This document shows, one piece after another, positions 7,093-43,511 of a stretch of 43,511 nucleotides of DNA. Positions within the stretch are counted from its first letter, which is position 1; the number at the start of each line of letters is the position of its first letter. Below the pieces are notes generated by a model. The model was not told where the DNA came from. It worked only from the letters and a program-made list of their open reading frames with translations, and did no database searches. Source of the stretch: an uncultured Arenicella sp. (GTDB lineage: Bacteria; Pseudomonadota; Gammaproteobacteria; Arenicellales; Arenicellaceae); NCBI GenBank assembly GCA_937922925.1, contig CALAKU010000080.1, positions 1-43,511 on the forward strand. The letters are read 5' to 3'. The position numbers and the translations under genes are program-made.

Positions 7093-7854
7093 GTGGAGTT
7101 TAGTTTACTCAGACGCGCACAATTTAATTTTTGGCGCATGGCTGAACCGCGAGCGGTTTTTGAATGGCAAAGCTTTTACGCGCTTAAGCCCTTGTTGAAG
7201 CGTCTTCCCAAAGGTGATGGTCACAGCGTGATTGTCTTTCCTGGGTTTGTTGGTAGCGATCGTTCAACAAAACCGATGCGTGAAATCCTTGATGCACTGG
7301 GCTATAAATCAGCAGGCTGGGGCTTGGGCCAAAATTTGTTTTTTGATGAGCAGCTTGAAGCTGAAATGGAAGCGTTAGTCAGGGAAGAGGCCGAGAAAAG
7401 TGGTGGCAAAGTATCCTTGGTGGGTTGGAGTCTTGGGGGGGTGTACGCGCGCGAGATTGCCAAACGCTGCCCAAATCAAGTTCGATGTGTGATTGCTTTG
7501 GGTTCACCGATTTCGGGTCGCATGCGTCAAACCCATGCCTCTAACCTGTTTAGAGCCATCAATGGGCAGCCTTCAAACCTAGATCGAACCCGCTATCGTG
7601 AGCTTCCAAAAGCACCCCCGGTGCCAACCACGTCTATTTTTTCAAAGTCCGACGGGATTGTTGCTTGGGAGGCTTCCAAACAAGAAACGTCTGAACTCAG
7701 TGAAAACATTGAGGTGCCAGCCTCGCATTTGGGTCTGGGTGTAAACCCCTTGGTTATCGCGCTATTGTCTAACCGCTTGGCTCAAGATCCAAAGAACTGG
7801 CAAAAGTTCGAGCCAAAATGGTGGTCAAGACTATTGATCAAGACGCCCAAGTAG
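7093..7854 (+). CDS. Alpha/beta-hydrolase, lipase-like
   Basis: 253 residues from GTG 7093, with GGAG 6 nt upstream. ATG 7138 is the alternative start. No signal peptide is seen. A short hydrophobic strand (HSVIVFPGFVGSD) precedes the nucleophile elbow GWSLGG (Ser113). A plausible acid is Asp187 in SKSDGIV and a plausible His is His212 in PASHLG, so a full triad is present. The GWSLGG elbow and the GSPISG segment resemble PGAP1/lipase-class hydrolases. The natural substrate is unknown. It lies in the accessory block between map and rpsB, beside a second hydrolase and a WS/DGAT acyltransferase, so a role in neutral-lipid or ester turnover is a reasonable inference, not shown. Confidence 0.75.
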   Translation: MEFSLLRRAQFNFWRMAEPRAVFEWQSFYALKPLLKRLPKGDGHSVIVFPGFVGSDRSTKPMREILDALGYKSAGWGLGQNLFFDEQLEAEMEALVREEAEKSGGKVSLVGWSLGGVYAREIAKRCPNQVRCVIALGSPISGRMRQTHASNLFRAINGQPSNLDRTRYRELPKAPPVPTTSIFSKSDGIVAWEASKQETSELSENIEVPASHLGLGVNPLVIALLSNRLAQDPKNWQKFEPKWWSRLLIKTPK

Positions 7855-26536: not shown

Positions 26537-29500
26537 ATGCACCGCTCCTTTGTACATTTGCATTTGCACTCCGAATATTCGCTGGTGAACGGCATGATTC
26601 GAGTGCCTGCCTTAGTGGAGCAAACTCGTACAAACCAAATGCCCGCGGTCGCAATGACCGATATTGGAAATCTCTATGGCGCGGTTAAATTTTTCAATAA
26701 AAGTGTGGCCCAAGGGGTTAAGCCAATTATTGGCGCCGAGGTCTATATAGAGAACCCAGACAAGGTTACCCAACCGTCGTCTCTGGTGCTTTTAGTCCAA
26801 GATCAAAAAGGCTACGTTAATTTATCTGAACTCATTTCTTTGGGTTTTCGCGTTGGTCAGGCGCATGGTAAACCCATTCTTAAAAAAGCCTGGCTGCAGG
26901 AGCGCGCAGAAGGTCTGATTTGTTTATCTGGTGGTCTGCGGGGCGAATTAGGCCACGCAATTTTAGGTGGGCGAGAAAAGTTTCTCGATGCACTTATTGG
27001 CGAATATCAATCTTTGTTTGGAGATCGGTTCTATATTGAAATTCAGCGCGTTGGCCAAGCCTACGAAGAAGAATATATTGCCGCGGCGGCGATGCTTAGT
27101 GTTCGGCATGGCGTCCCATTGGTCGCCACAAATGACGTTCATTTCATGCGTCAAGAAGACTTCGAGGCGCATGAGGTGCGGGTTTGTATCAACGAGGGCA
27201 GGGTACTAACCGACTCGCGAAGGGTAAGGCACCATACTAATCAGCAGTATTATAAAAGCGCGCAAGAGATGATCGATTTGTTCGAGGATCTTCCAAGCGC
27301 AATTGACAATACATTAATCGTCGCTCAGCGCTGTAATTTCGCCTTGCACATGGGCGAATACTTTCTACCTGATTTTCCTGTGCCTGAAGGCGAAACCATC
27401 GAATCGCATTTGCGCAATGAGTCGTTTCGCGGGCTTGATGTGGTGCTCGATCGCCGATTTCCCGAGGGCACTACGGCCGAGGTAGTGCAGGAATATCGCG
27501 AGCGCATGGAATTCGAGCTCAAGATTATTTTGGAAATGGGTTTTCCCGGTTATTTCTTAATCGTCGCTGATTTTATTCAATGGGCGAAAGACAACGGCGT
27601 GCCAGTGGGGCCGGGCCGTGGATCTGGTGCGGGTTCCTTAGTGGCGTATGCTCTCAAAATCACCGATCTTGATCCTATTGAGCATACTCTACTGTTCGAG
27701 CGATTTTTGAATCCAGAGCGTGTATCAATGCCGGATTTCGACGTCGATTTTTGTATTGAAGGTCGCGAGCGAGTGATCAACTACGTGGCCGAAAAGTACG
27801 GGCGCGAGCGGGTATCGCAAATCATTACTTATGGCACCATGGCTGCAAAAGGCGTGGTTAGAGATGTTGGCCGAGTGATGGGTATGTCGTATGGGCATGT
27901 TGATGGTATTGCTAAATTGATTCCTTTCGATTTGGGTATCACCTTAACCAAAGCCCTAGACCAAGAGCCAGAACTCAAGGAGCGTTATGACGAAGAAGAC
28001 GAGATAAGCGAGTTGATCGATATGGCCCTAAAGCTCGAAGGGCTCGCGAGAAATGTCGGTAAGCACGCCGGTGGTGTTGTGATCTCACCAACCGATTTGA
28101 CCGATTTTACGCCTCTGTATTGCGAGCACGGCAGCGAGCAGATCGTGGCGCAATACGACAAAGACGATCTTGAAACCATTGGTTTGGTCAAGTTCGACTT
28201 TCTTGGGCTAAAAACGCTCACGATTATTGATTGGGCGGTAAAAGCGGTAAACCAGTATCGGGCGTCCCGCGATGAATCCGCGGTAGACATCACTAAGTTG
28301 CCACTCGATGATCAAGCGACCTACGACTTACTAAAGCTAGGTCAAACCACGGCGATCTTCCAGCTGGAATCGTCGGGTATGAAGGAGCTGATCAAGAACT
28401 TAAAGCCCGATCAGTTCGACGACATCGTGGCGTTGGTTGCGTTGTATCGCCCAGGCCCCTTGGGCGCGGGCATGGAGAAAGTGTATTGCGACCGCAAGCA
28501 CGGTAAGGAACGCATCGAGTATCTGCATCCCATGCTTGAGCCGATATTGAATAACACACAGGGAATTATTCTGTATCAGGAGCAAGTGATGGAAATTGCT
28601 CAGGTGATGGCAGGCTACTCTTTAGGTGGGGCCGATTTGTTGCGCCGTGCCATGGGCAAGAAAAAGGCCGAAGAGATGGCCAAGCAAAGAGCCATTTTTG
28701 AGCAGGGAGCGGCCGAGCGAGAGGTTCCAAGTCAAGTTGCGGCCGACGTGTTTGACTTGATGGAATATTTCGCGGCCTATGGTTTTAACAAAAGCCATTC
28801 GGCGGCCTATGCGTTGGTCGCTTATCAAACTGCGTGGCTCAAAACCCATTATCCATCGCAGTTTATGGCCGCGTGTATGTCGGCGGATATGGAAAATACC
28901 GACAAGGTTGTTACCTTATTAAATGAAGCTAATAAGCTTGATTTGCGTGTTCAGCATCCAGATATCAATTATTGCCAGTATCAGTTCATCGCATTGGATG
29001 ACACCACTATTGTTTATGGCTTGGGGGCGATCAAAGGCATTGGCAAGCCAGTGATCGAAAACATCATTGAAGCCCGCGAACACGGCGGAGAATTTAAAGA
29101 CCTTTATGATTTGTGCGCAAGAGTGGATACCAAGCGAGTTAATCGCCGTGCTCTTGAAGCCCTGATCAGAGCTGGCGCATTAGACGACCTAGGCATTCAT
29201 CGGGCAAGCTTGGTTGCCAGCCTTGATCTGGCCTTAGAAGCCGCAAATCAGCAGCACAAGAGTGCGGCAGCGGGGCAGAACGATATGTTTGGTATTTCGG
29301 CTCCGGCGGACGCGGTGCAAACCTACAATGAAGTAGACCCGTGGACAAAAGAAGATTTACTCGCCCGCGAGAAGGAAACGTTAGGGCTTTACCTGAGCGG
29401 CCATCCTATTGATATGTACATTGATGAGCTTGATCAGTTCACCAGCTGTCGACTAGAGAATATTGATTTGGGTAACGAAAAAGGCAAGCGATCAGTTACT

Positions 29501-35876: not shown

Positions 35877-35905
35877 CGGCCAGCAATCAGTTGGCCGTTT
35901 TTTTT
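35877..35905 (+). terminator. Rho-independent terminator after eno
   Basis: A perfect 6-bp GC-rich stem, CGGCCA (35877-35882) and TGGCCG (35892-35897), is followed directly by eight T. It separates the housekeeping cluster from the C1 operon. Confidence 0.9.
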
Positions 35906-36061: not shown

Positions 36062-36090
36062 TTGGTTAGGCCGACTTTTGGATTTATGAT
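36062..36090 (+). promoter_or_regulatory. Probable sigma70 promoter of the C1 operon
   Basis: TTGGTT (36062-36067), a 17-bp spacer and TATGAT (36085-36090) would start transcription near 36097, giving a leader of about 20 nt before the HD-domain gene. The -35 match is weak and the -10 match is good. No regulator gene is in view. Confidence 0.4.
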
Positions 36091-36116
36091 TAGCGTAATT
36101 GAGCGGAAATATTTTT

Positions 36117-36701
36117 ATGAAAACAGTCCAATTTACTCAAATGGCAGACGGTACAGCTGCTGAATATGCGTTTCTTGATCGGCTTGAGGATGATTATAAA
36201 GCGGGTCTGGTCGATCGCATTTTGGTGTCGCTTGAGCGACTAAATCAGTCACTTTCAGGGTATCGCGTGTCGCGTTTAGAACATTGTTTGCAAGCAGCGA
36301 CACGCGCTCACCGAGATGGTAAATCGGAGCAATGGATAGCGGCTGCCTTGCTGCACGATCTTGGCGATGAGTTGGCGCCGTATTCGCATTCAGAGATGGC
36401 AGCCGCCATTCTTAGGCCTTTCGTTAGTGATGAAATCTATTGGGTTGTTAAGCATCACGGTATTTTTCAAATGTATTACTATGCTCACTACAGTGGCGGC
36501 GATAGGCATGCTCGCGAGGTCTATCGCGATCATCAGTTTTATCAAAGCGCGGTCGATTTTTGCCATCACTATGACCAAAATTGTTTTGATCCGGCTTACC
36601 AAAGTGAGCGGCTTGAATTTTTTAAGCCAATTCTTGAAACCGTGTTCGCAAAACCCCGGTCTTTTGATGAAGAACACAGCGCACGCTATGGCAAAAGATG
36701 A
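36117..36701 (+). CDS. HD-domain protein heading the C1 operon
   Basis: 194 residues from ATG 36117, with a GAGCGGA site upstream. A TTG at 36099 is unlikely. The N-terminus FTQMADGT...EYAFLDRLE and the HD core are typical of a conserved small family annotated as predicted HD phosphohydrolase. Potential metal ligands are H56 (RLEHCLQ), H80-D81 (LLHDLGD), H91 (YSHSEM), H113/H114 (VVKHHG) and D153 (CHHYDQ). This H...HD...H...H...D set matches di-metal HD enzymes, including mixed-valent di-iron oxygenases of the PhnZ/MIOX kind, but the Tyr/Glu lid of PhnZ is not evident. Whether it is a phosphohydrolase or an oxygenase is open. As first gene of the corrinoid operon it may act on the methylated substrate or its demethylated product. 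Confidence 0.75.
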   Translation: MKTVQFTQMADGTAAEYAFLDRLEDDYKAGLVDRILVSLERLNQSLSGYRVSRLEHCLQAATRAHRDGKSEQWIAAALLHDLGDELAPYSHSEMAAAILRPFVSDEIYWVVKHHGIFQMYYYAHYSGGDRHAREVYRDHQFYQSAVDFCHHYDQNCFDPAYQSERLEFFKPILETVFAKPRSFDEEHSARYGKR

Positions 36702-36712
36702 TTTTATGGCAC

Positions 36713-36729
36713 AATTGCGTGTCGCAATT
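36713..36729 (+). repeat. Inverted repeat between HD gene and corrinoid-protein gene
   Basis: AATTGCG (36713-36719) and CGCAATT (36723-36729) form a perfect 7-bp stem with a 3-nt loop, in the 116-nt gap between the first two genes. No T-run follows. It could be an operator half-site pair or an RNA-processing hairpin. Confidence 0.6.
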
Positions 36730-36817
36730 TGGACAAAAAAAGAACCTTAGGTAAATCACAATACCGACGTTATTAGTAAACGCTGATAACGAACAACAAA
36801 ACGCTTAGAGGCGAGTT

Positions 36818-37510
36818 ATGAGTGACCAAGACGATTTCGAACTCAGTGAGTTAGACGACAAAGAGCTGGTTGAGCAAATTCAAGACGATTTGTACGACGG
36901 TTTGCAAGATGAGGTCTATGAAGGCGTCGAAATTTTGTTAAGCCGAGATTGGGATGCCAACAATGTACTTGGTGACGCTTTAGTCGGCGGTATGAAAGTC
37001 GTTGGTGAAGATTTCAGAGACGGCATTTTATTTGTTCCTGAGGTGCTTAAAAGCGCAGGCGCTATGAAAAGCGGTATGGAATTACTTCGTCCTATCTTGT
37101 CACAAAGCTCGGTAGATTTATCGCTCGGTAAGTTCGTCATCGGCACAGTCAAAGGCGACATTCACGACATTGGTAAGAATCTAGTCGGTATGATGCTTGA
37201 GGGCGCAGGCTTTGAAGTCATCGATCTTGGTATTAACACCGATGTTGACGAATACCTTGGTGCTTTAGACGAGCACAAACCCGTAATCATGGGCATGTCG
37301 GCTCTGCTAACCACAACGATGCCCTATATGGGGGTTGTGATTGAAGAGATGGACAAGCGTGGCATGCGTAACGATTTTCACGTTATGTGTGGTGGCGCGC
37401 CGCTGAATCAAGAATTTGCTGATGCTATTGGCGCAGATGCATACGGTCGTGATGCCGCGCGCAGTTCCGAAATGGCGCAAACCTATGCAGAAGCGGCGAA
37501 GGTCGCCTAA
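36818..37510 (+). CDS. Corrinoid (cobalamin-binding) methyl carrier protein
   Basis: 230 residues, the size and layout of MttC/MtbC/MtmC-type corrinoid proteins. An acidic N-terminal helical cap (about 15-100) is followed by a Rossmann-like B12-binding domain. The base-off/His-on motif DxHxxG is at D114, H116 and G119 (KGDIHDIGKN). The SxL segment is at S161-L163 (MGMSALLTTTM) and a GG loop is in MCGGAPL. The His lower ligand and loops needed to hold cobalamin are intact. It would carry methyl between the MttB-like enzyme (43120) and the pterin methyltransferase (39772), cycling Co(I)/Co(III)-methyl. GAGG lies upstream of ATG 36818. Confidence 0.95.
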   Translation: MSDQDDFELSELDDKELVEQIQDDLYDGLQDEVYEGVEILLSRDWDANNVLGDALVGGMKVVGEDFRDGILFVPEVLKSAGAMKSGMELLRPILSQSSVDLSLGKFVIGTVKGDIHDIGKNLVGMMLEGAGFEVIDLGINTDVDEYLGALDEHKPVIMGMSALLTTTMPYMGVVIEEMDKRGMRNDFHVMCGGAPLNQEFADAIGADAYGRDAARSSEMAQTYAEAAKVA

Positions 37511-37526
37511 CGAATGCAAAATTAAG

Positions 37527-37581
37527 CGATGCCTCGCGAGCATGCAAGGCATCGTTGGTCGTAACCTGATGCGTAGCATCA
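37527..37581 (+). repeat. Two intercistronic hairpins before DUF1638 gene
   Basis: An 8-bp stem, CGATGCCT (37527-37534) with AGGCATCG (37547-37554), is followed by a 6-bp stem, TGATGC (37567-37572) with GCATCA (37576-37581). Neither has a T-run. They may tune mRNA stability, leaving the corrinoid protein more abundant than the downstream enzymes. Confidence 0.5.
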
Positions 37582-37599
37582 ATTGAGTGAGGGTGTGTC

Positions 37600-38271
37600 A
37601 TGCCGGTTTCCTCGAGTCAAGTAGCCACTGATAAGCGCTTGGTTTTGGGGTGTGGTGCTCTGGTTTATGAGTTGGTTGAGCTAACTCAACAAAACGCAGA
37701 GCTAAAACAGAAAATCGATTTGCATTGCTTACCCGCTCATTTACACAACACGCCTCAATTTATTGCACGCGAAGTCGATCTGTTCCTGCTAGAGCATGCT
37801 CATAAGTACCAAGACATTTTTGTTGCTTATGCCGATTGTGGTTCAGCCGGGGATCTCGACAAAGTGCTCGCTAAGCATAATGCTCAGCGCTTACCGGGCG
37901 CGCATTGTTACGAGTTTTTTGCGGGCGCGCCAGTGTATGAATCTATGCTCGACGAAGAGCTGGGTAGTTTTTTTCTTACTGACTATCTAGTTCAATTTTT
38001 CGAGCGTATTGTCATGCAAGGCTTGGGCTTGAATGATTATCCCGAACTGCGGGACATGTATTTTAAGCACTACACTCGTCTCATTTATCTGGCTCAAACG
38101 GAAAATCCGGAGTTGCAAGACTTGGCAAAACAACAAGCCAAGCAACTCGGTTTACGCTATGAGTATCGTTTTGTTGGAAAACAAGGGTTAAACCCGGTGA
38201 TTGATTTTCCCTCGGGAAAGTCGTTGGCAAACCAGAAAATTGCGGTCGAGGTTCAATATGATCCAACTTAG
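37600..38271 (+). CDS. DUF1638-family protein
   Basis: 223 residues with the hallmark pattern of DUF1638: RLVLGCGAL near the N-terminus (Cys18), HCLPAHLHNTP (Cys43), FVAYADCGSAGDLD (Cys80) and PGAHCYEFFAG (Cys103). The Cys/His positions suggest metal or cofactor binding, but no activity is established to my knowledge. The family is often found next to corrinoid methyltransferase genes in methanogens and acetogens, which fits its place here. AGGGTG lies before ATG 37600. The 3' end overlaps the next gene by 14 bp, which suggests translational coupling with metV. Confidence 0.85.
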   Translation: MPVSSSQVATDKRLVLGCGALVYELVELTQQNAELKQKIDLHCLPAHLHNTPQFIAREVDLFLLEHAHKYQDIFVAYADCGSAGDLDKVLAKHNAQRLPGAHCYEFFAGAPVYESMLDEELGSFFLTDYLVQFFERIVMQGLGLNDYPELRDMYFKHYTRLIYLAQTENPELQDLAKQQAKQLGLRYEYRFVGKQGLNPVIDFPSGKSLANQKIAVEVQYDPT

Positions 38272-38728
38272 GCATTTTGCAACGCGCCATGCGCGAGCCT
38301 ACGAAATAGTTTATAACGCCAGCAGCCCAGTCATTTTGGCGGGTATCCGCGTGATGCAAAAAGTGTTTGGGAATCGCTTAGATGGTGTTTTTACGTGGTT
38401 TGAAAAACACAGCAAAGGCTTGCTGTTCGATTGTCAGATGTGTGGCAATTGCGTGCTTTCCAGCACGGGCATGACCTGCCCAATGAACTGCCCTAAAACC
38501 ATCCGTAATGGCCCCTGCGGCGGCGTGAGAGAAAACGGTCACTGCGAAGTAAAACCGGATATGAAATGCGTTTGGGTTGAGGCGTGGAGTGGTTCTCAAA
38601 AGATGAAACACTCGAGCAAGATCGAAACCGTACAGTTTGCGCCAAACTATCAGCACAAAGGCAGCAGCGCTTGGATTCGGTTGGCTAACGAGCAAGGGAT
38701 TGGTGTGGAGGTGCAACATGAGGCGTGA
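38258..38728 (+). CDS. MetV-like zinc/Cys protein (MTHFR C-terminal domain family)
   Basis: 156 residues from ATG 38258. A longer upstream frame only extends into DUF1638. A short N-terminal helical part precedes a Cys-rich core: C59, C62, C65, C74, C78, C87, C96 and C104, in CQMCGNC, TCPMNCPK and NGPCGGV. This is the methylene-tetrahydrofolate-reductase C-terminal family. In acetogens the similar MetV protein binds zinc and partners with MetF in the MetVF complex. The gene overlaps metF by 11 bp, supporting a physical complex. It may help MetF bind folate or pass electrons. The metal is inferred. Confidence 0.85.
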   Translation: MIQLRHFATRHARAYEIVYNASSPVILAGIRVMQKVFGNRLDGVFTWFEKHSKGLLFDCQMCGNCVLSSTGMTCPMNCPKTIRNGPCGGVRENGHCEVKPDMKCVWVEAWSGSQKMKHSSKIETVQFAPNYQHKGSSAWIRLANEQGIGVEVQHEA

Positions 38729-39725
38729 AAACCCCACCATCCATCCACCGGTAGAGCATCCCGGTTCGCCGCTACCTGAAGAAGCAGGCCATCGTTCTCG
38801 AGGTCGGTTTGAGCGCGTACTGCGTGCCGGGGATTTTGCGGTTACCAGTGAAATTGCACCGCCTGATTCCTCAGACGCCGATGAAGTGTATCTGCGTGCC
38901 CAATTGTTTGATGGCGTCTGTGACGCGATCAATGCAACCGACGGTTCTGGCGCTAATTGTCATATGTCCTCAGTGGCGGTCTGTGCCTTGTTAACCCATG
39001 TGGGTTATTCGCCGATTTTACAAATATCGTGCCGCGATAAAAATCGCATTGCGATTCAAGGCGATATTTTAGGGGCCGCGGCCTTAGGCGTATGCAACGT
39101 CTTAGCACTCAGTGGCGATGATGTCTCAGCAGGCGATCATCCTGAAGCAAAGCCGGTTTTTGATTTGGATTCGATATCTCTATTGACCACGATTAAAACC
39201 ATGCGCGATGAGCAACGTTTTCTAAGCGGGCGAAAATTAGATCGTGCGCCAAAAATGTTTGCTGGTTCATCGATCAATCCATTTGTGCCGCCGGTTCATA
39301 ACCGGATTACCCAATTAGAGAAAAAAATAAACGCTGGGGCCGAATTCATTCAAACGCAATATTGCTTTGATATGCCAATGCTCAAAGAAATGATGAGCCA
39401 AGCGGTAGACAAAGGCTTAACCGAGCGCGCTTTTATTTTGGCGGGGGTTGGCACGCTGGCATCCGCTAAAACCGCGCGTTGGTTACGCGCTAACGTACCC
39501 GGCGTACACATCCCCGATGAGATTATCGCCCGGCTCGAAGGTGCAGAAAATCAAAAAGCGGAAGGCCAAAAAATATGTGTTGAACTCATGCAGCAATGCA
39601 AAGAGATCGAAGGCATTCACGGCGTACATGTAATGGCCTATCGGCAAGAACAATTTGTGGCCGAGATGGTCAAAGAATCCGGTGTTCTTGATGGTCGTCT
39701 GTGCTGGGCGCCAGAGCAACACTAA
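38718..39725 (+). CDS. metF: Methylene-tetrahydrofolate reductase
   Basis: 335 residues from ATG 38718, with a strong GGAGGTG site inside metV. MetF interconverts 5,10-methylene-THF and 5-methyl-THF with FAD. The catalytic Glu is in AVTSEIAPPD (E45), the flavin/folate segment is NVLALSGDDVSAG, and INAGAEFIQTQYCFDMPM is the later barrel strand. The rest is the TIM barrel. E. coli MetF runs reductively. Here, beside methyltransferase genes, the oxidative direction is the likely role: methyl-THF made from the demethylated substrate would be oxidised to methylene-THF. The N-terminus has an extra 25-residue polar segment. Confidence 0.94.
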   Translation: MRRENPTIHPPVEHPGSPLPEEAGHRSRGRFERVLRAGDFAVTSEIAPPDSSDADEVYLRAQLFDGVCDAINATDGSGANCHMSSVAVCALLTHVGYSPILQISCRDKNRIAIQGDILGAAALGVCNVLALSGDDVSAGDHPEAKPVFDLDSISLLTTIKTMRDEQRFLSGRKLDRAPKMFAGSSINPFVPPVHNRITQLEKKINAGAEFIQTQYCFDMPMLKEMMSQAVDKGLTERAFILAGVGTLASAKTARWLRANVPGVHIPDEIIARLEGAENQKAEGQKICVELMQQCKEIEGIHGVHVMAYRQEQFVAEMVKESGVLDGRLCWAPEQH

Positions 39726-39771
39726 CTATCTGAAAAATTTTATACCCAAAACCTCAAGTGCGAGAAGCGTA

Positions 39772-40665
39772 ATGACTAAAACCATTTTATCCTCACCAAA
39801 CAAAGAAGTTGCGATCGGCTTTGGCAGCCCATTCGTTATGATTGGTGAGCGAATCAATCCAACAGGCCGCAAAATCCTAGCAGCCGAAATGAAAGAGGGC
39901 GATTACTCGCGGGTTGAGTCCGATGCCATCGCACAAGTTCAAGCCGGCGCGCAAATGTTGGATGTGAATGCCGGCATTCCATTGGCTGATGAACCCGCTA
40001 TTTTGGCAGAAGCCATTCGGCGTGTTCAGGCCGTGGTCGATGTCCCTCTCGCGATTGATTCATCGATTATTGAGGCGCTCGAAGCTGGGTTGGAAGCTTA
40101 TCAAGGCCGCCCTTTAGTAAATTCAACCACCGCCGAAGACGAAGTCATGGAGCGCGTTTTACCGTTGGTCAAAAAATACGACGCTGCGGTAGTGGGTATT
40201 TCCAATGACGAAACGGGTATCTCGGAAGATCCGGACGTACGTTTTGAAATTGCCAAGCGCATTGTTGAGCGCGCTCAAGACTATGGTATCAAGCCAGCTG
40301 ATGTGGTCATCGACCCGCTGGTTATGCCGATTGGGGCGATTGGTCAAGCTGGTAATCAAGTCTTCCATTTGTGCAAACGCCTACGCGAAGAACTTAAGGT
40401 GAATACCACTTGTGGCGCGTCGAATGTGAGCTTCGGATTACCCAATCGCCATGCCATTGCCAATGCCTTTTTGCCGATGGCAATGGGGGCAGGGATGACA
40501 TCGGCAATCGTGAACCCGCTGCACGGCGGAGTCGTCGAAGCGGTTCGTGCCGCCGACGTTCTAATCTACAACGATCCCGATTGCGAACAATGGATCGCGA
40601 ATTATCGCGAACCACCAAAAGAGGGCGAAGAAGGTGGCCGTCGTCGCCGCCGTCGTCGCGGCTAA
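39772..40665 (+). CDS. Pterin-binding methyl-THF/corrinoid methyltransferase (MtvA/MtgA-like)
   Basis: 297 residues from ATG 39772. The longer frame adds an unlikely segment. A pterin-binding TIM barrel is seen: MIGERINPTGRKI at 23-35, LDVNAGIP at 63-70, LAIDSSI at 93-99, NSTTAEDE at 117-124, VIDPLV at 179-184 and CGASNVSFGLP at 214-224. These match the DHP-synthase-like barrel of methyltetrahydrofolate:corrinoid methyltransferases (AcsE, MtvA). It would move methyl from the corrinoid protein to THF. It ends in seven consecutive Arg (residues 290-296), an odd tail shared in style with two other proteins of this operon. GFA follows 6 bp on. Confidence 0.93.
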   Translation: MTKTILSSPNKEVAIGFGSPFVMIGERINPTGRKILAAEMKEGDYSRVESDAIAQVQAGAQMLDVNAGIPLADEPAILAEAIRRVQAVVDVPLAIDSSIIEALEAGLEAYQGRPLVNSTTAEDEVMERVLPLVKKYDAAVVGISNDETGISEDPDVRFEIAKRIVERAQDYGIKPADVVIDPLVMPIGAIGQAGNQVFHLCKRLREELKVNTTCGASNVSFGLPNRHAIANAFLPMAMGAGMTSAIVNPLHGGVVEAVRAADVLIYNDPDCEQWIANYREPPKEGEEGGRRRRRRRG

Positions 40666-40671
40666 AACGCC

Positions 40672-41082
40672 ATGAGTGAGACGGCATATCAAGGCGGATG
40701 CTGTTGCGGCAATATCCGCTATAAAGCAGAACGGCTCAATGAGCTTTGGTACTGCCATTGTCAGCAATGTCGCCGCATGACCGGGCACTACATGGCTGCC
40801 GCACAGGTCGAGCTAGAGAAAATCGAAATAAGCGGTGAGCCGAAATGGCACTATGTCTCTGAGACATCGCGTCATGGTTTTTGCCCCGATTGCGGGTCGC
40901 AACTGTTTTGGCGTAACGACAAAAACGATTACTTGAGTGTCACCGGCGGCAGCCTTGATTCGTCAAATACGCTTCGCTCTGGCGGGCATATTTTTTGCGC
41001 AGAAAAAGGTGATTACTATCAAATTCCCGATGGCGAAGCTCAGTTTTTTCGTTGGGATAGTACGTTTTTTAATAACGAATAA
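40672..41082 (+). CDS. GFA-family zinc protein (CENP-V/GFA domain)
   Basis: 136 residues with the diagnostic GFA Cys pattern: C10 and C12 in GGCCCGNIRY, C28/C30/C33 in YCHCQQC, and C71/C74 in FCPDCGS. This zinc fold is named after glutathione-dependent formaldehyde-activating enzyme. Many members have other or unknown roles, so formaldehyde activity is not certain. In this operon a link to formaldehyde, which can equilibrate with methylene-THF, is attractive. It starts 6 bp after the pterin methyltransferase and precedes RACo by 48 bp, so it is an integral operon gene. Confidence 0.85.
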   Translation: MSETAYQGGCCCGNIRYKAERLNELWYCHCQQCRRMTGHYMAAAQVELEKIEISGEPKWHYVSETSRHGFCPDCGSQLFWRNDKNDYLSVTGGSLDSSNTLRSGGHIFCAEKGDYYQIPDGEAQFFRWDSTFFNNE

Positions 41083-41130
41083 TCACGCTTGGTCGGGCAT
41101 ACTAATGGGCTCGCTAAACGGTTCAAATTC

Positions 41131-43086
41131 ATGTCTGAAAATACTTCATCTTCTGTTCGCCTTGTTTTTACCCCTTCGGGCTTGTCCGCCACGGCTGAGG
41201 CCGGCAGCAGCGTATTAGAAGTCGCTCAAGAGACCGGCGTTGCGATTCGATCTTTATGCGGTGGCAATGGTAACTGCCGCCAGTGCTGGATTGAAATTTC
41301 CGAAGGCTCGCACAGCAAACACGGCATCGACAGTTCGGCCGACAATGTTTCCCCAGTCACCGAACTCGAAGAGCGCCTCTATCAGCGCAGCGCCAAGTTT
41401 CAAGGGCTACGCTTAGCGTGCCGAACGCGTGTTCACGGCGATTTGCTGATCGACGTACCTGAGCGCAGTCAAGAAAACCTGGCCTATATCTCAAAAAAGA
41501 ACGTCGCGCGCGATTTCGATTTATTGCCTGTCGTTAAAGTGGCGCCGGTCGAATTAGCGGAAGCCACTTTGGACACCAATCCGTCGGCCAGCGAGAACCT
41601 GATTGAGCGCTTGCAAGAACAAGGGTTCGATGCGCAAATCAATGCTCGGCTATTGCGCGGTTTACAGCCGCTAGTAGCCGAGACGAAAGGGCGTTTTTCA
41701 GTCGCGGTGCGCGACGATCAAGAAGTGGTAGCACTGTACGCTGAGCCAAACCCAACCTTGCTCGGTGCGGCTATTGATATTGGCTCGACGACTTTGGCGC
41801 TGTATGTCTACGATTTGCAAAGTGGCGCATTGATGTACGAAAACTCCGCCATGAATCCTCAGATTCAATACGGCGAAGATCTGATGAGTCGTGTGTCGTA
41901 TGTGATGATGAACAAAGGTGGCGATCAAAAAATGACCGCGGCCGTGCATCGTAAACTGACTGAAATGCTGCACGAGGCATGTAAACAGTTAGAGCTGGAG
42001 CACAAGCACTTGCTCGAAGTCGTGTTAGTGGGCAACCCCATCATGCACCACTTATTTTTTGGATTATCACCGGTGGAGTTGGGCCAAGCCCCGTTTACCT
42101 TGGCGACGCGAGATTGGTTGGAAATGAATGCCAGCGAGTTGGGCATAGATTTGTTTCCAACCACACGGATGGCCTTTTTGCCATTGATCGCCGGCCACGT
42201 TGGTGCAGATACGGCCGCAGCTTATTTGAGCGAAATCGACACCATGCAGTCGCAAACCACGCTGCTGGTGGATATTGGCACTAATGCAGAGATTATGCTG
42301 GCCAAAAACGGTTTGGTTTATGCGACTTCATCGCCCACTGGCCCTGCTTTTGAAGGTGCGGAAATCAGCGCAGGCGTGCGTGCCTCCCATGGCGCGATTG
42401 AGCGAGTTCGCATCGATGAACAAAGCTTGGCGGTGCGCTACAAAGTCATTGGCCTTGACGCATGGTCAGACGAAGAAGCCTTCAGCGCCGCCCAACCCAG
42501 AGTCATCGGTTTGTGTGGCTCAGGCATCATTGAAGTCATGGTGGCGATGGCGCAGGTGGGCTTAATTGATAAAACGGGTTTATTCGTGCAAAGCCGAGCG
42601 CCCGAACGCTTTGATAAAAACGAAGACGGCACAGTTCGCTACCTTTTGGTCGAACAGGGCGAGCATTCAATTTACATTGAGCAGACCGATGTTCGATCTA
42701 TTCAGCTCGCTAAAGCCGCGCTTTCAGCCGGCGTGCAATTGCTAATGGATTATCTTGAGTGTGAAGCATTTGATCATGTTTTATTAGCCGGGGCTTTTGG
42801 TGCGCATTTAGACCCTGAGTTTGTCGCCGACCTCGATATTATTCCGAGCGCCACGCGAGACCAAATCCGTTCCGTTGGAAATGCAGCCGGGATTGGTGCT
42901 AGTAAAGCGCTATTAAGTAACAATGAACGCCAAAAAATCATCGAAGCGGTAAAACGTGTTCGCAAAATCGAAAGCGCCAACGAGCCAAATTTTCAAGAAT
43001 ACTTTGTTCAAGGCATGACGTTTTCAGTGTCGCCGATTGCGGCACAAAAAAACACACGCCAGCGTCGACGCCGAAGAGCGTCATAA
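41131..43086 (+). CDS. RACo-like corrinoid activator (2Fe-2S plus ASKHA ATPase)
   Basis: 651 residues from ATG 41131. An in-frame TTG at 41089 is unlikely. The N-terminal ferredoxin domain has the 2Fe-2S Cys set C43-x5-C49-x2-C52 and C97 (SLCGGNGNCRQCW and RLACRTR). After a linker, the ASKHA ATPase part carries GAAIDIGSTTLALYVYD, LLVDIGTNAEIM and GLCGSGIIEVMVAM. This is the layout of RACo/RamA-type activators that reduce inactive Co(II) corrinoid to Co(I) at the cost of ATP. Its presence argues that the corrinoid protein really works as a Co(I) carrier. It ends RQRRRRRAS, another arginine-rich tail. Confidence 0.93.
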   Translation: MSENTSSSVRLVFTPSGLSATAEAGSSVLEVAQETGVAIRSLCGGNGNCRQCWIEISEGSHSKHGIDSSADNVSPVTELEERLYQRSAKFQGLRLACRTRVHGDLLIDVPERSQENLAYISKKNVARDFDLLPVVKVAPVELAEATLDTNPSASENLIERLQEQGFDAQINARLLRGLQPLVAETKGRFSVAVRDDQEVVALYAEPNPTLLGAAIDIGSTTLALYVYDLQSGALMYENSAMNPQIQYGEDLMSRVSYVMMNKGGDQKMTAAVHRKLTEMLHEACKQLELEHKHLLEVVLVGNPIMHHLFFGLSPVELGQAPFTLATRDWLEMNASELGIDLFPTTRMAFLPLIAGHVGADTAAAYLSEIDTMQSQTTLLVDIGTNAEIMLAKNGLVYATSSPTGPAFEGAEISAGVRASHGAIERVRIDEQSLAVRYKVIGLDAWSDEEAFSAAQPRVIGLCGSGIIEVMVAMAQVGLIDKTGLFVQSRAPERFDKNEDGTVRYLLVEQGEHSIYIEQTDVRSIQLAKAALSAGVQLLMDYLECEAFDHVLLAGAFGAHLDPEFVADLDIIPSATRDQIRSVGNAAGIGASKALLSNNERQKIIEAVKRVRKIESANEPNFQEYFVQGMTFSVSPIAAQKNTRQRRRRRAS

Positions 43087-43119
43087 CGGCATCTATTCCC
43101 ACAAATCGAGGATAAAATT

Positions 43120-43511
43120 ATGGCCAGAGAGCGAAGAAGAGGCGGGCGTAGAGCTCGTGCCGAAGCCCCAGCCGAGTCGACCGCACCTGCATACATCAAG
43201 CGTAAAATCCCCTATTGGGAAGTGCTTAATGACGAGCAGCTGAGTTTGATCGAATACAACGCCGACACCATTCTCGAGGAAATCGGTATCGATTTTACCG
43301 AAGATCAAGAAACCCTAGATATATTCGAAGCCGCCGGAGCCAGCATCGACGGCGAGCGAGTTCGTTTTCCGCGCGGTTTATGTCGCGAAATCATTCAAGC
43401 TACGGCGCAAAAACAATTCACACAGCACGCCCGAAACCCCAAGCGCAATGTTGAAATTGGTGGCGATAACATGGTGCTGGTACCGGCCTATGGGCCGCCG
43501 TTTGTGTACGA
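43120..43511 (+). CDS. MttB-superfamily methyltransferase, 3' end cut by window edge
   Basis: ATG 43120 with GAGG upstream. 130 codons run to the window edge. After an arginine-rich N-terminus (ARERRRGGRRARA), the sequence KRKIPYWEVLNDEQLSLIEY, then ILEEIGIDF and FEAAGASIDGERVRFP, is the typical MttB-superfamily start. Superfamily members demethylate trimethylamine (with pyrrolysine) or quaternary amines such as glycine betaine (without pyrrolysine). No TAG interrupts the visible part, but the pyrrolysine site lies further on, so the class cannot be told here. With the corrinoid protein and RACo beside it, it is very likely the substrate-demethylating enzyme of the operon. Confidence 0.85.
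   Translation, partial: MARERRRGGRRARAEAPAESTAPAYIKRKIPYWEVLNDEQLSLIEYNADTILEEIGIDFTEDQETLDIFEAAGASIDGERVRFPRGLCREIIQATAQKQFTQHARNPKRNVEIGGDNMVLVPAYGPPFVY

Follow-up and report, generated by a model that had tools for sequence, protein, structure and literature searches.

The stretch of DNA analysed here (the window, 43,511 nucleotides) is contig C80 of the draft genome G000 of an uncultured Arenicella sp. (104 contigs, 2.69 Mb, 87.6% complete) and carries nine plus-strand open reading frames (ORFs) at 36117-43511, each with a domain above the Pfam curated cut-off. We consider it probable, at roughly three chances in four, that this operon encodes an aerobic MtgBCD-type quaternary-amine demethylase that can be reversed for methionine synthesis and whose proteins carry docking tags. 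By its gene content the operon is a member of the aerobic betaine demethylase/split methionine synthase type, MtgBCDE, which has already been described; the new part is a pattern of arginine-rich tails around an acidic corrinoid protein. Comparisons were made with 61 genomes, G000 included (labelled G), and with fetched loci (labelled L).

Gene content, synteny and proposed pathway

The corrinoid protein MtgC, the hub of the system, is encoded at 36818-37510 (PF02310, B12-binding, 87.9 bits against a cut-off of 32.1, and PF02607). It is followed by genes for a DUF1638 protein (37600-38271; 82.6 bits, cut-off 27), a MetV-like protein (38258-38728; MetV-type DUF5981, 92.9 bits, cut-off 23), a MetF2-like methylenetetrahydrofolate reductase (38718-39725; MTHFR, 114.7 bits, cut-off 24), the methyltetrahydrofolate:corrinoid methyltransferase MtgD (39772-40665; Pterin_bind PF00809, 95.7 bits, cut-off 25.5; NF005719, 362.9 bits, cut-off 259), a GFA-family protein (40672-41082; PF04828, 72.5 bits, cut-off 24.3), a RACo/RamA-like corrinoid reductive activase (41131-43086; RACo C-terminal domain, 248.2 bits, cut-off 27, with three further domains; the set is PF14574, PF17651, PF17650 and PF00111) and the 5' part of mttB (mtgB-like, 43120-43511; MTTB, 139.1 bits, cut-off 25, profile positions 1-125 of 500). 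Upstream of mtgC lies a gene for an HD-domain protein (36117-36701; Pfam HD, 26.3 bits, cut-off 22), a predicted diiron oxygenase of the PhnZ/TmpB/MIOX type; the HD and GFA genes are accessory. The start codons of metV (38258) and metF (38718) were set from those of relatives. The initial annotation had described nine same-strand genes, some of them overlapping, and this holds: DUF1638/metV and metV/metF overlap, and the remaining intergenic gaps are 6-116 bases long, a spacing that makes co-transcription of all nine genes likely. As in the aerobic MtgBCDE type, MtgC, MtgD and a PF06253 MtgB are separate proteins and both a RamA/RACo-like activase and DUF1638 are present. The window MtgC scores far below the cut-offs for anaerobic MtgC (NF047996, 195.2 versus 370 bits; NF047995, 160.4 versus 310 bits).

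In the proposed pathway, the donor would be a betaine, most likely glycine betaine, whose methyl group MttB (MtgB) would transfer to the Co(I) of MtgC; MtgD would pass it from there to tetrahydrofolate (THF), and MetV/MetF2 would oxidise the methyl-THF to methylene-THF, while RACo, aided by DUF1638, would re-reduce Co(II). MtgC and MtgD probably also work in reverse, towards methionine, together with an unlinked MtgE. Arginine tails on four partners and the acidic N-terminus of MtgC would be complementary docking tags that hold together a split, exchangeable methyltransferase. The route from MttB through the B12 protein and methyl-THF to methylene-THF, with RACo as activator, had been drawn in the initial annotation and is backed by the domains, the synteny and a close published precedent.

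The order mtgC-DUF1638-metV-metF-mtgD-GFA-RACo-mttB is kept in all seven same-genus loci fetched (L027-L033), and the nine-gene set is therefore not due to chance. The neighbourhood search proposed in the initial annotation thus recovered an eight-gene order, with an HD gene and a GBBH-like gene inserted after mtgC in three of these loci (L028, L029 and L031). Outside the family but within the order, 12 loci were compared: nine have mtgC, DUF1638, mtgD and RACo together, two have DUF1638 alone and one (L017) has a divergent cluster. Across the genomes compared, DUF1638 occurs in 36 of 61 and MTTB in 44; the largest number of MTTB matches in one genome is 19 (G055). In one same-genus genome (G003, with locus L129) a single MTTB match and an MtgE with a tail were found but no DUF1638 match, possibly owing to incompleteness.

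Several observations bear on the substrate. Beside mtgC in L028, L029 and L031 lie genes for a DAO+GCV_T protein of the dimethylglycine-dehydrogenase (DMGDH) type and for a formate-THF ligase (Pfam, run on the L028 copies), and G000 has a gene 88% identical to the DAO+GCV_T gene at the end of contig C103. When compared with the Protein Data Bank (PDB), the complete MttB of L032 scored 704 bits with 4YYC, 447 with 2QNE, which we take to be from Desulfitobacterium hafniense, 443 with 9YCE, a deposited glycine betaine methyltransferase, and 117 with 7XCL, the pyrrolysine trimethylamine methyltransferase MttB. Glycine betaine is our best guess for the MttB substrate; both the substrate and the direction of flux are inferred. 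Assignment to the pyrrolysine MttB family (TIGR02369) was rejected: the complete L032 protein reaches 251.9 bits against a cut-off of 525, and the readable parts of mttB in G000 contain no stop codon.

Methyl groups probably flow in both directions here, because neither MetH nor MetE was found in the draft and an unlinked MtgE is present. The MetH activation domain PF02965 occurs in 29 of the 61 genomes and was found neither in G000 nor in G004, a 98% complete genome that has the operon, DUF1638 and MTTB; the MetE domain PF01717, searched in 21 genomes, was likewise found in neither. MtgE/Bmt is encoded on contig C53 of G000 (PF02574; NF005718, 467.4 bits, cut-off 338), apart from the operon, next to LysR-like and enolase-superfamily genes, and look-alike pairs of these two genes stand by mttB in L028 and L029. 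The initial annotation, with its flow from a methylated amine to methylene-THF, missed this second direction.

It is unlikely, in our judgement, that the operon is catabolic only, with betaine methyl groups oxidised via methylene-THF and methionine supplied by an undetected MetH or by Bmt alone. Three points nevertheless count for such a restriction and against a reversible operon: PF02965 is also present in seven of the nine same-genus genomes with DUF1638, the G000 draft is only 87.6% complete, and Bmt/MtgE can by itself use dimethylsulfoniopropionate (DMSP) or betaine in vitro (accessible text of PMC12366255), which complicates a modular view. They are opposed by the near-complete G004, where the operon is again accompanied by neither PF02965 nor PF01717, and by the methionine auxotrophy of mtgC and mtgD mutants of Ruegeria (accessible text of PMC12478193, as throughout). 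A dual role thus seems likely in G000 and, since MetH is kept in those seven genomes, is not general in the genus. Far less probable still is a decaying locus, with mttB broken, the HD partner lost and the pathway dead in this strain. The mttB gene is indeed in two pieces, no GBBH-like partner of the HD gene was found here, and in the sister genome G007 both the GBBH-like and the HD gene are reduced to remnants, which lie upstream of mtgC. However, all other reading frames of the operon are intact, and both mttB pieces are open and end exactly at contig ends: the window cuts the gene at its last base, and PF06253 positions 175-500 are found at 28160-29137 on the minus strand of contig C91, at the end of that contig, leaving about 50 residues unseen in between. 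Extension of mttB, as the initial annotation had advised, thus turned up no pseudogene in the readable parts.

Loss of corrinoid synthesis or salvage had been named in the initial annotation as evidence that would speak against the pathway, and for synthesis such a loss is suggested. CbiC was not found in any of the 13 same-genus genomes searched, G000 included, and CobS was not found in G000, G001 and G004, while it is present in the other ten. De novo corrinoid synthesis thus seems to be absent from G000, and imported cobalamin would probably be needed. An Rfam search at gathering scores gave no cobalamin riboswitch in the window. A gene for a TonB-dependent receptor follows mttB on contig C91 (L015, 5961-8048) and also in L030, L032 and L033; as a candidate BtuB it scores 57.8 bits against a cut-off of 599.7, and this reading was set aside.

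Arginine-rich tails and an acidic corrinoid hub

Low-complexity tails rich in arginine and glycine are found at the C-termini of MtgD (40621-40662), RACo (43051-43083) and MtgE and at the N-terminus of MttB (43120-43170). A C-terminal tail was scored when a 20-residue segment of the last 25 residues held at least five arginines; for MttB the segment was taken within the first 45 residues. Counts were made on ORFs of 100 residues or more, selected by length so as not to overlap, and were collapsed when their ends were identical, which also merges rows that appear under two names (such as L048 and G001). This choice lost the MtgE of L149 and L150 (both tailed), the MtgD of L208, L211 and L215, and the MtgD- and RACo-like ORFs of L017, for which the contrast given below comes from a direct look at the protein ends. 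L216 (Gemmatirosa) yielded no usable gene, and MetH-type ORFs truncated at the border of a stretch were kept out of the MtgD row.

By these criteria the C-terminal tail is present in all 19 MtgD, all 21 RACo and all 28 MtgE proteins, and the MttB segment holds at least four arginines in 69 of 69 proteins and at least five in 57 of them. (An earlier MttB count of 71 included L079, which reached four arginines through a misplaced region and not a tail.) In contrast, none of 18 MtgE homologues of other types (MetH or its homocysteine part, MmuM-like and others) has the tail (28/28 versus 0/18; Fisher p = 3.5e-13, not corrected for relatedness). C-terminal tails are also absent from MetF (0/14), DUF1638 (0/20), GFA (0/14) and MtgC (0/17), and among the other proteins they number 0/10 for GBBH-like proteins, 0/5 for FTHFS, 1/12 for MetV, 2/35 for the DMGDH type and 4/75 for HD. 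Among unassigned ORFs, 41 of 1251 have at least five arginines in the last 20 residues; some of the arginine-rich ones look antisense or GC-rich. A GC artefact was rejected as the origin of the tails, the window having 48.5% GC and the tails using all six arginine codons, a usage that points to selection on the amino acid.

In a phylum sample, 42 of 398 genomes have an MtgD at E 1e-60, and all 28 readable MtgD proteins from the 29 loci fetched besides the window's own are tailed. Sinorhizobium (S.) meliloti pSymB likewise has tails on its bmt, MttB, MtgD and RACo, as do those partner genes that were read in Paracoccus aminovorans, Azoarcus, Terrarubrum, Pseudorhodobacter and Shinella, and seven of eight further named MttB proteins, including one from the R. 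pomeroyi megaplasmid, have at least five arginines in their first 35 residues. The deposited structures 2QNE and 9YCE have no counterpart of the MttB tail, and 2YCK and 1F6Y none of the MtgD tail. A 760-residue protein on a Terrarubrum flagellatum plasmid (L213, 5757-8039), annotated as a virulence factor, also matches RACo, bears an arginine tail and is apparently a fusion. We found no description of arginine tails in the literature searched, which was mostly open-access: the word "arginine" does not occur in the main text of PMC12478193 or PMC12366255, nor "arginine-rich" in the text of PMC5764234.

The first 24 residues of MtgC (36818-36889) carry a net charge of -10, and this N-terminal stretch has a net charge between -7 and -13 in 18 of 20 rows. 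The divergent cluster L017 and Vescimonas fall outside this range (-1 and -3); neither the MtgD-like nor the RACo-like protein of L017 is tailed, and its MtgC has no acidic N-terminus. In the haloarchaeon Halomicrococcus, RACo has four scattered arginines in its last 20 residues and no run, and MtgC starts acidic; this is a weak control because the proteins of halophiles are often acidic.

We infer from this distribution that the arginine tails are electrostatic docking tags for MtgC. The tailed types share MtgC as a partner, by published or family function, and MetF is untailed, which favours docking on MtgC over folate binding. A shared charge code, by which MtgB donors, MtgD, MtgE and RACo would all dock on the acidic N-terminus of MtgC and many MttB paralogues could plug into one MtgC, is a more tentative proposal, to which we give slightly less than even odds. 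Several findings weigh against docking. Twelve of the 69 MttB proteins have only four arginines in the segment, and 114 of 1243 unassigned ORFs have at least five in a segment of their first 40 residues, making the MttB criterion the weaker one. The exception among the eight, an S. meliloti protein of the MttB type with 418 residues, is tailless, the first 45 residues of MetV hold at least four arginines in 11 of 12 cases and at least five in seven, and DUF1638, supposedly a helper in reactivation, has no tail. In addition, a structure model of MtgD built from four sequences was unusable (mean pLDDT 39.7). Alternatively, the tails might be generic binders of polyanions (RNA, polyphosphate, membrane or condensates), their sharing reflecting localisation to such a surface, as their low complexity and R/G-rich composition, common in nucleic-acid binders, would allow. 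This appears rather unlikely, since the tails mark four families that have MtgC as partner, are absent from equal folds outside the system (the MtgE homologues) and from the C-termini of MetF, DUF1638 and GFA, and face an MtgC of matching charge, a charge lacking in the tailless cluster L017.

If docking on MtgC is correct, the tail marks clients of the hub and provides a sequence tag with which new ones can be found. MetH joins its modules in one chain; how separate modules find the corrinoid protein is not addressed in the accessible text of PMC12478193, PMC5764234 and PMC12366255. Tails and an acidic hub would also explain how as many MTTB genes as in G055 share one hub.

The HD-domain protein and the surroundings of the operon

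The model of the HD protein has a mean pLDDT of 92.0, and its best PDB matches are PhnZ and TmpB, with MIOX lower at E 0.09. It shares with these three (PMC8177086, accessible text) the fold and the H..HD..H..H..D ligands, which are conserved in an alignment of the window with 36 loci, hand-picked from the 80 closest named loci (L107 and L116 were left out for stops inside the coordinates used, and L124 was left out as well). A further shared feature is a 2-oxoglutarate-oxygenase neighbour, which the HD gene has in seven sister genomes. The protein differs from PhnZ, TmpB and MIOX in its identity of about 20% and in its substrate loop: PhnZ and TmpB are described as having a YxxE loop along with the diiron ligand motif (PMC8177086), whereas in the alignment the window protein has LSGY where PhnZ has YIGE. 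It also misses the TmpB/PhnZ family cut-offs (NF049941, 29.3 versus 300 bits; TIGR03276, 37.4 versus 214.6 bits).

Close HD orthologs occur in eight same-genus genomes. In seven of them the adjacent gene is GBBH/TmpA-like, being either the query or 64-70% identical to it. For the eighth, G000, a search of the draft did not recover this partner, and no remnant of it is present in the window. Three GBBH-like sister proteins fall below their family cut-offs (NF049936, 304.8-313.1 versus 400 bits; TIGR02409, 304.5-323.8 versus 414.75 bits). In G007 the decayed GBBH-like and HD remnants, with internal stops, lie at 7358-7525 and 7612-7779 of L033. The adjacency in the seven sister genomes had suggested the TmpAB route from 2-trimethylaminoethylphosphonate to glycine betaine, which we rejected given the missing YxxE loop, the family cut-offs and the partner ortholog not found in the draft. 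Of the 80 closest named loci, 18 have HD immediately behind a DMGDH-type gene, 16 have it behind a SoxG-type gene (six of these 16 records are named Thioglobus or SUP05) and eight behind a GBBH-like gene (neighbour types by Pfam on representatives; L059, L073 and L077 are among the loci of the first two kinds); the other HD loci have different neighbours, in several of them housekeeping-looking. The HD protein is likely a diiron oxygenase often tied to betaine catabolism, judging from the model and these neighbours. Its position next to genes for betaine demethylation, seen in many marine Gammaproteobacteria, makes it a candidate for an additional, uncharacterised step of that catabolism.

Upstream of the operon lie pyrG, kdsA and eno (names assigned from ORFs). 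Between eno and the operon, at 35877-35905 on the plus strand, a terminator-like hairpin with a 6-bp stem, a 9-base loop and T8 was read by eye; its loop is outside the range of the hairpin scan, which did not list it. The operon is thus unlikely to be transcribed by read-through from the housekeeping cluster. The initial annotation had described it as attached to that cluster, which is right as to its position behind eno; the tie appears to be positional only. A second hairpin of 11 pairs (37527-37554; 28 bases, loop of 6) lies between mtgC and DUF1638 and could set the ratio of mtgC to downstream mRNA. Counts of promoter-like sites (5 versus 8.9 expected) and terminator-like sites (12 versus 10.4 expected) in the window were uninformative.

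Comparison with known systems

The initial annotation regarded such a gene set as surprising in a Gram-negative chromosome. That view does not stand, as the system has been shown in Ruegeria pomeroyi, and mtgC is reported from marine Alpha-, Delta- and Gammaproteobacteria, often near genes for later steps of betaine demethylation (PMC12478193). Proteomics and mutants of R. pomeroyi show that MtgC and MtgD take part in methionine synthesis as well as in glycine-betaine demethylation, their partners being MtgB (PF06253), MtgE, MetF2, a RamA-like protein and DUF1638, and MtgBCD is reported to be a major route by which betaine is turned over in the ocean (PMC12478193). In Phaeobacter (P.) inhibens, fitness data show that DUF1638 and a RamA-like protein act jointly with three methionine-synthase modules, and DUF1638 has been tied to B12 reactivation (accessible text of PMC5764234).

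The Arenicella operon has in common with Ruegeria (PMC12478193) and Phaeobacter (PMC5764234) the MTTB, corrinoid protein, pterin methyltransferase, MetF2, RamA/RACo and DUF1638 modules, as well as an MtgE encoded elsewhere in the genome. It differs in that the modules form one operon together with HD and GFA; HD, GFA and arginine tails are not mentioned in the accessible text of either paper. With the anaerobic MtgABC of D. hafniense (as described in PMC12478193) it has in common the chemistry, from betaine via a corrinoid protein to THF, but the matched MtgB-type chains 2QNE and 9YCE, as deposited, have no arginine tail, unlike the MttB studied here.

The window MtgC is 62-66% identical to proteobacterial plasmid MtgC proteins (n = 15, the best band), and for the corrinoid proteins of S. 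meliloti and Paracoccus methylovorus plasmids the identity is 63.5-65.9%. S. meliloti pSymB (CP090106.1) has the same order of mtgC, DUF1638, metV, metF, mtgD and RACo, with mttB and bmt nearby and, as here, tails on the four partner proteins. There, the places of HD and GFA are taken by a hypothetical gene and one of the Virulence_fact family (PF13769), and mttB and bmt lie upstream of mtgC, with mttB on the opposite strand.

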